A program made the position numbers and the translations under genes. Positions 50,383 to 54,026 of a stretch of DNA of 64,000 nucleotides are shown one piece after another. The notes below the pieces were generated by a model. The model saw nothing but the letters and a program-made list of their open reading frames with translations, had not been told where the DNA came from and searched no databases. Source of the stretch: Streptomyces qaidamensis (GTDB lineage Bacteria > Actinomycetota > Actinomycetes > Streptomycetales > Streptomycetaceae); assembly GCF_001611795.1 (NCBI RefSeq), contig NZ_CP015098.1:1736001-1800000 (forward strand). Reading direction: 5' to 3'. Numbering within the stretch: the stretch's first letter is position 1; the number at the start of each line of letters is the position of its first letter.

Positions 50383-51201
50383 TCAGAAGGAGGCGAGCAC
50401 GGAGCCGGCGTACTTGTCCTGGATGAACTTCTTCACCTCGGGCGAGGTGAGGAGCTTCGCGAGCTTCTTCACGCGCGGGTCGTCCTCGTTGCCCTTCTTC
50501 ACGGCGAGGAAGTTGCCGTAGGGGTTGTTCTTCGGCGACTCCAGGACGAGGGCGTCCTTGGAGGGCTTGAGGTCGGACTCGATGGCGTAGTTGCCGTTGA
50601 CGACGGCGGCGTCCACGTCGTCGAGGGAGCGCGGGGTCTGGGCCGCCTCCAGCTCCTTGAACTTCAGGTTCTTGGGGTTCTTGGTGATGTCGGAGGGTGT
50701 CGCCTCGTTGCCGACGCCCGCCTTGAGGGTGATGAGCCCGTCGGCGGCGAGGAGCTTGAGGGCGCGGGCCTCGTTGACCGTGTCGTTGGGGATGGCGACG
50801 GTCGCACCGCTCTTCAGGTCGTCGGCCTTCTTGACCTTGTGGGAGTAGAGGCCGAGCGGCTCCAGGTGGACCGTGACGACGGGCACGATGTCGGTGCCGT
50901 TCTTCTTGTTGAAGTCGTCGAGGTACGGCTTGTTCTGGAAGTAGTTGGCGCCGACGGAGCCGTCCTGCGTCGCCGTGTTCGGCGTGACGTAGTCGGTGAA
51001 CTCCTTGACCTGGAGGTCCAGGCCCTCCTTCTTCGCCAGGTTGTCCTTCACGTAGGTGAGGATCTCGGCGTGCGGGACGGGGCTGGCGGCGACGATCAGG
51101 GGGCCGTCGGTGGACGAGCTGTCGGCGCCGCAGGCGCTGAGCCCGAGGGTGAGGGCTCCGGCGGCGAGGACGGCGGTGGTGATCTTGGCGGTGTTACGCA
51201 C
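50383..51201 (-). CDS. metQ: MetQ, methionine-binding lipoprotein of ABC importer
   Basis: This 272-residue lipoprotein has a signal with lipobox LSAC (Cys24) and a NlpA/MetQ domain: PLIVAASPVPHAEILTYVKD, NYFQNKPYLDDFN and VAIPNDTVNEARALKLLAAD. It binds D- or L-methionine outside the membrane and delivers it to MetI. GTG at 51201 (VRNTAKITTAV) is chosen. It is last in the metN-metI-metQ operon, 62 bases after metI. Confidence 0.95.
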   Translation of the reverse strand: MRNTAKITTAVLAAGALTLGLSACGADSSSTDGPLIVAASPVPHAEILTYVKDNLAKKEGLDLQVKEFTDYVTPNTATQDGSVGANYFQNKPYLDDFNKKNGTDIVPVVTVHLEPLGLYSHKVKKADDLKSGATVAIPNDTVNEARALKLLAADGLITLKAGVGNEATPSDITKNPKNLKFKELEAAQTPRSLDDVDAAVVNGNYAIESDLKPSKDALVLESPKNNPYGNFLAVKKGNEDDPRVKKLAKLLTSPEVKKFIQDKYAGSVLASF

Positions 51202-51263: not shown

Positions 51264-51971
51264 TCAGGAGGCGGCTTTGAGGAGCCGCAGTTTGGGGGCG
51301 GGTCCCGAGTGGGCGCCGCGGCGGTGCAGGGAGCGGGCCGCATAGTCGCCGGCGAACTGGATGACCGAGATGACGACGGCGAGGATCGCGACGGTGATCC
51401 ACATCAGCTGCGTCTCGAAGCGCTGGTAGCCGTAGCGGATGGCGATGTCGCCCAGGCCTCCGGCGCCGACGGTGCCCGCCATGGCCGAGTAGCCGATGAG
51501 GGCGACGACCGTGGTGGTGGTGCTGGAGATCAGCGACGGCAGGGACTCGGGGACGAGGACCTTGCGGACGATGGTCCAGGTGTTGCCGCCCATGGACTGC
51601 ACGGCCTCGACGAGCCCGTGGTCCACTTCGCGGACGGCCGTCTCGACCAGGCGCGCGAAGAACGGGATGGCGCCGACGGCGAGCGGCACGATGGCCGCCT
51701 CGACACCGATGGTCGTCCCGGTGATCGAGCGGGTGAAGCCCATCAGCGCGACCATCAGGATGATGAACGGCAGGGAGCGGGCGATGTTCACGACCTGCCC
51801 TATGACCTTGTTGGCGGCGAGGTTCTGCAGGAGGCCGCCGCGGTCGGTGAGGACCAGCAGGATGCCGAGCGGCAGTCCGCCGACGACGGCGATGAGCGTG
51901 GACCAGCCGACCATGTAGAGCGTCTCCCAACACGCCTGCTCCAGCAGGGGCTGCATCTCGGACCAGGTCAC
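51264..51971 (-). CDS. metI: MetI, methionine ABC transporter permease
   Basis: This 235-residue permease begins VTWSEMQPLLEQACWETLYM and has five membrane segments. The EAA loop is AVREVDHGLVEAVQSMGGNT, then a conserved part IVRKVLVPESLPSLISST, both typical of MetI. Its GTG at 51971 overlaps the metN stop by four bases, so the two are coupled. Confidence 0.95.
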   Translation of the reverse strand: MTWSEMQPLLEQACWETLYMVGWSTLIAVVGGLPLGILLVLTDRGGLLQNLAANKVIGQVVNIARSLPFIILMVALMGFTRSITGTTIGVEAAIVPLAVGAIPFFARLVETAVREVDHGLVEAVQSMGGNTWTIVRKVLVPESLPSLISSTTTTVVALIGYSAMAGTVGAGGLGDIAIRYGYQRFETQLMWITVAILAVVISVIQFAGDYAARSLHRRGAHSGPAPKLRLLKAAS

Positions 51972-53002
51972 TTGGCACCTTCCTTCACCGGTTCGGAGTC
52001 GTGGCCCAGGAGGTCGATCTGGAGGCCCTTTTCGCGCAGGAAGCCGATGGGCACGACGTTGTCCTCGTAGCGGCCGGGCAGTTCGATGCGCATCCGGCCG
52101 ACCTGGAGGCCGCCGACGGTGTCGATGGCGGCGCCGAGGATCGATATGTCGATGTTGTAGGTGCGGGCCAGCTGCGAGATGACGGGCTGGGTGGCGCTCT
52201 CGCCCTGGAAGGTGACGTCGACGACGGTGCGGTCCTCGCCGGAGGCCTCGCCGTCGAGCGGGAACAGCGCCGAGGCGAGTTCCGAGCCGGGGGTCGCGAG
52301 GAGCTCGCTGACCGTGCCGGACTCCACGATGCGCCCGTTCTCCATGAGGGCGGCGGAATCGCAGACCGACTTCACGACGTCCATCTCGTGGGTGATGAGC
52401 AGGACGGTCAGGCCGAGTTGCCGGTTGAGGTCGCGCAGCAGCGCCAGGATCGAGCGGGTGGTCTCGGGGTCGAGGGCGCTGGTGGCCTCGTCGGACAGCA
52501 GCACCTTCGGGTCACCGGCGAGCGCGCGGGCGATGCCGACGCGCTGCTTCTGGCCGCCTGAGAGCTGCGCCGGGTAGGACTTCGCCTTGTCGGCGAGGCC
52601 CACCAGGTCGAGCAGCTCCAGCGCCTTGCGGGAGCGTTCCTGCCCGGACTTGCCGAGGATCTCCAGCGGGAGTTCGACGTTGTCCTGGACGGTCCGGGAG
52701 GACAGCAGGTTGAAGTGCTGGAAGACCATGCCGATGCGGCTGCGCGCCTGCCGCAGTTCCTTTCCGGCGCGCGGGCCGCGGCCTGCCAGTGCAGTGAGGT
52801 CCTGCCCGGCGACGGTCACGGTGCCGGCCGTGGGGCGTTCCAGCAGGTTGACGCAGCGGATGAGCGAGGACTTGCCGGCGCCGGACTGGCCGATGACGCC
52901 GTACACCTCGCCTTCGCGGACGTGCAGGTCGACGCCGTCCAGGGCGGTGACCTCGCGGCCGCGTGCACGGTAGACCTTGGTCAGGCCCGAGGTGGTGATC
53001 AC
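51968..53002 (-). CDS. metN: MetN, methionine ABC transporter ATPase
   Basis: This ATPase of about 344 residues has Walker A GQSGAGKSS, the signature LSGGQKQRVGIARAL, Walker B VLLSDEATSALD, and the H-loop LLITHEMDVV. The C-terminal ACT-like regulatory domain (about 270-344, NIDISILGAAIDTVGGLQVG) is known in MetN to sense methionine and inhibit transport. GTG at 53002 (VITTSGLTKVYRARG) is the family start; GTG at 53050 would add 16 residues. A leader ORF with Cys and Met codons precedes it by 204 bases. Confidence 0.94.
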   Translation of the reverse strand: MITTSGLTKVYRARGREVTALDGVDLHVREGEVYGVIGQSGAGKSSLIRCVNLLERPTAGTVTVAGQDLTALAGRGPRAGKELRQARSRIGMVFQHFNLLSSRTVQDNVELPLEILGKSGQERSRKALELLDLVGLADKAKSYPAQLSGGQKQRVGIARALAGDPKVLLSDEATSALDPETTRSILALLRDLNRQLGLTVLLITHEMDVVKSVCDSAALMENGRIVESGTVSELLATPGSELASALFPLDGEASGEDRTVVDVTFQGESATQPVISQLARTYNIDISILGAAIDTVGGLQVGRMRIELPGRYEDNVVPIGFLREKGLQIDLLGHDSEPVKEGAK

Positions 53003-53206
53003 TGGGATTCCGTCACTGTCGAGTGCGCGGGCGTGGGTGTGCCCGGGCACAGGTGCATTCGGTCAGGGACGCGACACGGTTCTCGCTGGGGAGTGGAACC
53101 GGGGAGAACAGGTGCGCGGGGCGGCTTCGGGTCGCAGCGCTCAGGGCGTGCGGACGGGCCGCGTCTCGCTTCGGGGCGCGAGCTCAGGGGGTGGTGCGGG
53201 GGCCCT

Positions 53207-53251
53207 CTAGAAGGCGCACATTCGACACATACAACGAGCACCGGGCGTCAT
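53207..53251 (-). CDS. Cys/Met-rich leader peptide before metNIQ
   Basis: On the minus strand an ATG at 53251 with GAGG 6 bases upstream opens a 14-residue frame reading MTPGARCMCRMCAF and stopping at TAG 53207. Three Cys and two Met codons (besides the start) fall in six positions (CMCRMC). An in-frame ATG at 53293 would make a 28-residue form but lacks a ribosome site. Between it and metN are possible hairpins (GTTCTC/GAGAAC at 53079-53109; CTCGC/GCGAG at 53165-53182). It looks like a sulfur amino acid attenuator; this is inference from arrangement. Confidence 0.6.
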   Translation of the reverse strand: MTPGARCMCRMCAF

Positions 53252-53375
53252 GGTCGCCTCGGTCGCGGGGATGCGGTCGCTCGTCGTGGTCATGCCGTCA
53301 GTAAAACACGCGTACGGTCCTTACCGGCCCTCCGCTGTCCGGATGCTGGACGGCGGTGGACAGGGTCCCGGTCTG

Positions 53376-54026
53376 TCAGCGGCGCAGGGAGATCTCCACG
53401 CCCTGCTCGGTGACCAGTGCGGACAGGACCGACAGGTTCTCGACGACCAGATCGGCGTCCAGTTCGTGGGCCTGGTGGGTTGTGGTCAACGCCACGGTGG
53501 TCATGCCGGCGGCGCGGCCGGACGCCAGGCCCGCGGGGGCGTCCTCGAAGACGACGCAGCGTGCCGGGTCGACACCGAGGGCGCGGGCGGCGAGGAGGTA
53601 GGGCTCGGGGTCGGGCTTGCCGCGCGTGATGTCGTCGGCGGCGACGAGGGTCTTGGGCAGGATGCCGACGGCGTCGAGCCGGGCCTCGGCGAGGCGCCGG
53701 GTGGCGGAGGTGACGACGGCCCAGCGGTCACCGGGCAGAGAGTCGAGGAAGCCACGGGTGCCGGGCAGCAGGTGCACACCGCCGCCCGGCACGTCGTCGA
53801 CCTCCAGGTCCTCGATGCGGGCGACGGCCTGCGGGACGATCTCGGCGGGCAGCAGGTCGGCGGCTATCTCGGCGGCCGGCCGGCCGTGCAGCTCGACCCG
53901 GGCGAACTCCTCGGCCGTGATCCCGTACTCCGTGGCCCACCGTGTCCAGCAGCGGTCCACCGACGCGAGGGAGGAGACGAGGGTTCCGTCGTTGTCGAAC
54001 AGCAGGGCCTGCGCGTGGATCGTCAT
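53376..54026 (-). CDS. HAD-superfamily sugar-phosphate phosphatase-like hydrolase
   Basis: This 216-residue hydrolase has motif I ALLFDNDGTLVSS, motif II VVTSATR, a lysine in TRGKPDPEPYLLAA, and motif III VVFEDAPAGLASGRAAG. These resemble the phosphatase group acting on small sugar phosphates (YfbT/HxpA-like). The protein has the alpha-helical cap between motifs I and II. ATG at 54026 gives MTIHAQALLFDNDG. It is upstream of, and co-directional with, the metNIQ leader. Confidence 0.92.
   Translation of the reverse strand: MTIHAQALLFDNDGTLVSSLASVDRCWTRWATEYGITAEEFARVELHGRPAAEIAADLLPAEIVPQAVARIEDLEVDDVPGGGVHLLPGTRGFLDSLPGDRWAVVTSATRRLAEARLDAVGILPKTLVAADDITRGKPDPEPYLLAARALGVDPARCVVFEDAPAGLASGRAAGMTTVALTTTHQAHELDADLVVENLSVLSALVTEQGVEISLRR

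Follow-up and report, generated by a model that had tools for sequence, protein, structure and literature searches.

A conserved and apparently leaderless upstream ORF with a Cys/Arg/Met box precedes the methionine importer genes metNIQ in Streptomyces

Introduction

Attenuators of the trp, his and ilv type carry leader codons for the amino acid that is handled by the genes downstream. In mycobacteria, polycysteine leaderless short open reading frames (ORFs) were reportedly described by Canestrari in 2020. The available text of another paper terms their mode of action translation attenuation (PMC13236596). Candidate leaders with Cys codons have also been proposed for actinobacterial cys and cbs operons, with a role for Rho suggested; in its accessible text, the same survey describes no conserved RNA structure upstream of methionine operons (PMC1262725).

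The closest described system is found in Streptomyces lividans TK24, whose reannotation lists metL (SLIV_29928), encoding MSTTSDRTPATEATTTPGARCMCRRMCAF, upstream of metNIQ. According to the accessible part of that study, metL has a leaderless start and several hairpins but no typical Rho-independent terminator, and it is called a methionine-dependent attenuator, with Met and Thr, not Cys, as the amino acids named (PMC8079986). The study concerns one strain, and its available text describes neither an RNA junction nor the spread or nucleotide-level conservation of the leader. Both the leader and the view that it is an attenuator are therefore already published for S. lividans, and ours is not the first report. 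A literature search beyond that paper returned no other paper on the metL leader among the matches listed.

Here we analyse the corresponding locus in a window of 64,000 nucleotides from Streptomyces qaidamensis (NZ_CP015098.1), whose genome comprises 9.08 Mb in a single contig. The locus shares the metNIQ context of S. lividans metL and encodes a near-identical peptide. As in attenuators of the trp, his and ilv type, the leader codons appear to fit the amino acid of the downstream genes. Unlike those systems, metL has no terminator hairpin with a U-tract, and its conserved structured RNA is predicted to be the leader ORF itself. Like the mycobacterial polycysteine leaders, it is a short, apparently leaderless ORF that carries Cys codons and precedes a sulfur-related operon; it differs in that its box also contains Met and CGA codons, its Cys codons are separated and the gene downstream belongs to a methionine importer. 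The cys and cbs leaders likewise have Cys codons near the stop and no obvious terminator, but, in the text accessible to us, they contain Cys runs and belong to cys and cbs operons (PMC1262725). A search of metL against the NCBIfam leader peptide families NF042934 and NF042936 gave no family hit at E cutoffs of 1 and of 10.

Results

The three genes downstream of the leader had been annotated as a methionine importer, and this assignment holds: all are best matched by methionine-transporter models (Table 1). MetI alone scores above its cutoff, the metN score being under the curated TIGR02314 cutoff of 499.7 and metQ reaching 190.5 bits against a cutoff of 374.

Table 1. Features of the metL-metNIQ region, in window coordinates
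Feature	Position	Strand	Basis
15-bp dyad GTCCAGCATCCGGAC, NdgR (IclR-family)-like operator	53337..53351	-	58-44 nt before leader ATG
TTTACT, candidate -10 element of leaderless promoter	53300..53305	-	conserved ATG spacing
metL leader ORF, 28 codons + TAG, MTTTSDRIPATEATMTPGARCMCRMCAF	53207..53293	-	homologue of SLIV_29928 metL
Predicted three-way junction within ORF	53223..53292	-	RNAalifold, 159 sequences
Sensor box, codons 21-26 TGT ATG TGT CGA ATG TGC (C M C R M C)	53216..53233	-	RM[C/R], Cys, Met in 112/112 peptides
Leader-metN spacer, C-rich, G-poor	53003..53206	-	C > G in relatives
Post-stop hairpin CUCGC-GCCCCGAA-GCGAG, loop conserved, no U-tract	53165..53182	-	GCGCCCCGAAGC exact in 161/174 loci
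Predicted hairpin GUGC...GCAC, directly 5' of metN initiation region	53023..53050	-	RNAalifold, 142 sequences
metN, ATP-binding subunit, methionine importer, GTG start	51968..53002	-	TIGR02314 best match, 389 bits
metI, permease	51264..51971	-	NF008049, above cutoff
metQ, substrate-binding lipoprotein	50383..51201	-	NF008285 and TIGR00363 best matches, below cutoff

The initial annotation had proposed a 14-residue leader peptide with its own ribosome site. As read in the window, this frame (MTPGARCMCRMCAF followed by TAG) occupies 53251-53207 on the minus strand, and its stop is separated by 204 nt from the metN GTG at 53002 on the same strand. A CMCRMC-bearing ORF at this distance is thus present as claimed, but the real ORF is longer: the frame stays open upstream to the ATG at 53293. 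The internal ATG encodes Met in only 37 of the 81 distinct 28-codon leaders and was ruled out as the leader start because of this poor conservation. The GAGG proposed as its ribosome site forms part of a predicted RNA stem and is not conserved as a Shine-Dalgarno sequence.

To locate start and frame across relatives, we used DNA anchors that impose neither a start codon nor a frame. Both anchors were found in 170 of 175 Streptomyces and Kitasatospora loci, one being missing in the other five (L021, L123, L131, L148 and L150). An ATG at a distance from the box divisible by three was present in 123/123 distinct leaders, the distance taking ten different values, each a multiple of three, and start and frame were likewise kept in 109/109 when loci chosen through the core were left out. 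We therefore regard the ATG at 53293 as the conserved start. The lengths of the spacer between leader and metN are spread across all three phases (57/51/49). Taken from sequence comparison, these results are strong evidence that the leader ORF is under reading-frame selection and is translated, which is in line with the earlier suggestion that the short peptide is real.

Exact CMCRMC-coding DNA was found in 86 of 199 genus genomes, compared with 1/199 for a reversed-pattern control. We found metN in 192 of these 199 genomes and read the DNA upstream of it for part of the 192, chiefly those lacking the exact core, together with further genus members and with Streptomyces and Kitasatospora records from a genome collection; the matching genomes listed are part of the 192, and the least similar genus members are covered only in part. 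The leader was recognised in 174 of the 175 loci (159 distinct over the leader plus 80 nt), and in 143/144 when the 31 loci selected through the core pattern (L001-L031) were omitted. L147, the sole locus missed by the recognition pattern, does carry a leader, MTTTSSRTPATEATLTPGARCSCRMRAF. This pattern demanded both the box and an in-frame distance, so its counts of frame and of RM are circular; we replaced them by the frame-blind test and by 112 peptides scored on start and middle, for which the core was not needed. Some loci represent two fetches from one genome, and numbers of distinct sequences are used where counted. A second exact core in one genome (G086, L193) has no leader by ORF score and was taken as chance.

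The joint presence of Cys and Met codons in a leader before metNIQ, an earlier claim on this DNA, was found in all 112 distinct peptides. At least one Cys and at least one Met lie within the last 12 residues of each, and each has RM followed by C or R near its C terminus. Cys is present in every leader, at shifting positions, and in two leaders the last 12 residues hold just a single Cys and a single Met. Among the 81 distinct 28-codon leaders, Met25, which lies outside the P1 stem of the RNA structure described below, is invariant, Met22 is replaced by Leu, Thr, Arg, Gly or Ser in 18, and codon 26 encodes Cys in 58 and Arg in 23. Several codons are near-fixed in this set, less used ones included (CGA 81/81, GGT 80, GCT 79). 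CGA accounts for 27 of 231 Arg codons in nine window frames taken as genes, and a slow CGA codon ahead of Met may help the ribosome to pause.

Differences from the consensus codons in the leaders comprise 51 synonymous and 365 nonsynonymous changes, a synonymous share of 0.123 compared with a neutral expectation of 0.234. In the first ten codons of metN at the same 94 loci, 144 changes are synonymous and 56 nonsynonymous (0.72). The signature that the initial annotation predicted, constant in amino acids and free in synonymous change, is thus reversed. As judged from these alignments, conservation of the leader acts at the nucleotide level.

Folding of 159 sequences with RNAalifold predicts a three-way junction within the ORF, in which P1 joins nt 2-15 with 55-71, P2 spans nt 19-30 and P3 spans nt 31-54. 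At the base of predicted P1, nucleotides of the start codon pair with the CGA codon. Folding of a set of 35 sequences (36 selected minus L045) recovered 22 of the 26 junction pairs. Over 86 distinct 28-codon leaders, 97.6% of cells are paired compared with 23-41% in slid controls, and the 35-sequence set again gave 97.6%. When 127 leaders were folded singly, the median z was -1.96, with 61 below -2; z fell between -0.7 and 0.5 for L229, L231, L232, L233, L045 and L241. Of these 127 folds, 68 pair the start codon, and none forms the U2-G71 pair, which joins U2 to the CGA codon.

Compensatory change was scarce. In the 35-sequence set, 2 of 910 cells carry a double change, both from L234 (C-G to U-A in P2 and G-C to A-U in P3), a number matched by 29-38 of 500 shuffles. 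In the 86-leader set, six pairs show a single double change apiece, a number not attained in any shuffle; three of the six stem from the diverged row L045, which was aligned ungapped, and a slid control (-2) gave eight double-change pairs. A three-way junction in the leader ORF is likely, not proven, the support coming from complementarity and stability, with weak covariation.

Elsewhere in the genome, one partial match to the RNA model (L322; G000:C1:890195-890235, minus strand) has 42 nt identical to metL leader nt 14-55, the part covering P2 and P3. It sits inside another gene, whose reading frame is apparently interrupted there, and was set aside for its position.

Downstream of the stop codon, the stem pairs of the post-stop hairpin are preserved in most of the 159 rows. 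In the hairpin at 53023-53050, one pair is G-C in 125 sequences and A-U in 13, and the next is U-A in 130 and C-G in 2; these counts refer to sequences, not to independent events. The spacer contains more C than G in 157/157 relatives (mean C 0.463, G 0.287), and the C minus G value of the window's own spacer is attained in 39 of 2554 windows of the same length. With Rfam 15, nothing in the window except tRNAs scored above the gathering score, the best sub-threshold match within 52950-53380 being a caulobacter sRNA on the opposite strand (E 0.45). Neither the folding alignments nor the leader-metN comparison yielded an alternative helix supported by covariation, in a search that was not exhaustive.

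Of 160 distinct upstream regions, 157 have the TTTACT hexamer ending 6 nt (84 regions) or 7 nt (73 regions) ahead of the ATG; because of this spacing the metL transcript is apparently leaderless at the ATG at 53293. For S. lividans, the available text states that the transcription start was mapped (PMC8079986).

Farther upstream, the 15-bp dyad is the sole match to its pattern in the window (0.13 expected). Among 160 distinct relatives, 157 have the more general form GTCC-N(4-10)-GGAC no more than 120 nt upstream, compared with 193 of 3700 control windows, and in 144 relatives it starts at -56 to -58. The accessible text of a ChIP-seq study gives a 15-bp motif for NdgR, [GT]T[CT]CAC[CA][CTA][TC][GC][TC]GGAC (PMC4340878). 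Our dyad matches 14 of its 15 positions; the dyads of relatives match at least 12 positions in 157/160, and 14 or 15 in 63. To look up the metN genes in that study we used the gene numbers SCO1557-SCO1559, which we take to be theirs. These numbers are absent from the main text available for the study, which covers one condition in another species (PMC4340878). The conserved dyad suggests an NdgR-like operator as a second layer of control.

A covariance model of the leader matches S. oceani (L043, E 8e-13) and Kitasatospora (L044, E 6e-6; L045, E 0.001). Its matches in order-level relatives are weak (L233, E 0.006; L231, E 0.009; others above 0.04), and 118 class-level genomes gave nine matches, eight of which belong to the genus and one of which has E 0.003. 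Leaders such as MIDTQSSRTSAAILAPRMMCGMPMCRMCSC are present in 7/7 order-level loci (L227-L233); a TATAGT hexamer stands 7 nt ahead of the ATG, and every one of the seven boxes contains TGYCGAATGT. In two of them, UCGACACG pairs with CGUGUCGA (L228) or UGUGUCGA (L230), so that the 5' segment differs from that of Streptomyces and pairing with a segment ending in CGA persists. Folding in L229 and L231-L233 does not stand out clearly from shuffles.

Defining a Cys/Met-rich leader as an ORF with at least five Cys plus Met in its last 18 codons, a threshold fixed after a first look, we found one before metN at 12 of the 29 loci outside the genus that could be tested, compared with 0.1 expected from shuffles. 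These comprise 7/7 order-level and 5/22 class-level loci; 7 of the 36 loci outside the genus were dropped, six without a resolved metN start and one that was too short. In 15 of the 22 class-level loci there is either no candidate ORF or one with only 2-3 Cys plus Met.

Three class-level loci (L253, L254 and L255) have longer Met-rich leaders before metN, as in ...VMCRGMRRCGTSRMCAMGGMPSMR of L253, which suggests the same sensing by unrelated sequence.

Discussion

Taken together, we consider it reasonably probable that metL is a leaderless, translated upstream ORF that controls metNIQ through the pace of the ribosome over the Cys/Arg(CGA)/Met box, and a ribosome-stalling leader that senses Met and/or Cys is the most likely description of it. 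A shortage of charged Met- or Cys-tRNA would make the ribosome halt on the box. The box overlaps the 3' strand of P1, so a halted ribosome would block closure of the junction and metNIQ would stay on. When Met and Cys are plentiful, the ribosome would depart and the junction would close over the start codon, hindering re-initiation. The C-rich spacer, now left bare, could then lead to an early end of transcription, most likely by Rho, or to poor translation of metN. A regulator of the NdgR type at the upstream dyad probably also sets transcription.

The initial annotation had drawn hairpins between leader and metN as the means of attenuation, which stays unproven: no intrinsic terminator was found within 52900-53450, and modelled stalling fails to free the metN ribosome site. 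Placing a ribosome on the box or on the stop codon in 72 of 143 sequences changes modelled access to that site by 0.0015 to 0.0175 (mean). The proposed Rho step gives no account of how stalling would shield a spacer that lies downstream, and this tempers the ribosome-pace explanation of metL. In a more specific version, the start codon is locked by the CGA-AUG segment that itself encodes the Met/Cys box, so that leader translation and junction folding are mutually exclusive and a single ORF forms a terminator-less switch reading two sulfur amino acids. We consider this version unlikely, its odds being slightly lowered by the single-sequence folds, only about half of which pair the start codon.

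An occlusion of the mycobacterial style would place the decision at metN itself: base pairing to the leader core would occupy the metN initiation region until a ribosome halts on the box and releases it. Within the box, UGUCGA is the complement of a near-invariant UCGACA just upstream of metN, and a ribosome placed at Met25 lifts the modelled access to the UCGACA zone from 0.25 to 0.40. However, placing it at the stop codon gives much the same value, 0.38, which leaves little difference between the two states, and modelled access to the metN ribosome site, beside which such pairing is possible, does not change. We compared the two partners in 158 of 175 loci (144 distinct), 17 being dropped where the patterns missed metN or the leader start. 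Changes are uncompensated, with partners reading TCAACA, TCGAGA or TCGAAA and leaders with TGC or CTC before CGA left unmatched. The extended long-range pairing UGUCGA-AU-GUGCGC / GCGCAC-UCGACA, strong in the window, is likewise uncompensated across the 144 distinct sequences and was kept as a rival only. Translation attenuation is thus, in our view, rather unlikely.

The freeze at the nucleotide level could instead mark the binding site of a structured RNA that recognises a metabolite or a protein, like a riboswitch, with the ORF secondary. Synonymous sites constrained beyond neutral while amino acids vary, the predicted three-way junction and the conserved loop of the post-stop hairpin would all fit, and Rfam has no matching family. 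We nevertheless find such an RNA distinctly unlikely. A start kept true to frame across many leader lengths is needless in an untranslated RNA, the variable parts are the loops of P2 and P3, and Met/Cys-rich peptides also occur in L253-L255 and L258, where the RNA model finds no convincing match. A further reading, in which the conserved DNA serves as a long transcription-factor site or another DNA element and the ORF is a by-product, is very improbable: near-invariant DNA does follow directly after the presumed start site and a conserved dyad lies upstream, but start and frame are kept in 123/123 leaders and self-complementarity extends across 70 nt. Least probable of all is a functional Cys-rich micropeptide, for example one that binds a metal or a thiol. 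Selection on the frame and a CxC-like core in most relatives speak for it, and against it stand the change from Cys to Arg at codon 26 in 23/81, the two leaders with a single Cys and a single Met in the last 12 residues, and N-terminal residues that are retained along with their exact codons. Such a peptide is unlikely because amino acids vary while codons stay.

If control by ribosome pace over the box holds, a Streptomyces importer would be governed by a leader that fuses coding and RNA-folding constraints, which differs from the terminator or riboswitch logic of methionine genes elsewhere. The leader would then offer a compact system, conserved widely, in which to test leaderless translation and joint sensing of Met and Cys, as well as attenuation in high-GC bacteria that uses no intrinsic terminator.

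A new NdgR target would also be predicted. Loosely similar dyads number 30 in the window's own genome, compared with 18 for a reversed control, and among ten of the 30 sites inspected, the metL site included, two precede leuB and sulfite reductase, both named by eye. The available text of the ChIP-seq study counts leuB and sulfite reductase among NdgR targets (PMC4340878).

At the first of these two sites (L285; G000:C1:6339402-6339418), a perfect dyad, TGTCCGTGATGCGGACA, lies shortly before a putative 3-isopropylmalate dehydrogenase, assigned by eye; the gene for this enzyme is a known NdgR target in S. coelicolor, according to the text available (PMC4340878). At the second (L308; G000:C1:7092701-7092717 and the next 270 nt), an NdgR-like dyad stands 251 nt before a putative sulfite/nitrite reductase, again assigned by eye, and ends 40 nt before an ORF encoding MSGTGIALVSRRHVDLGRMSSAICPAH. 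This ORF matches the NCBIfam family NF042934, 'putative leader peptide', above its cutoff and NF042936 below it. The layout, a dyad followed by a Cys-containing leader, is much like that of the metL locus.
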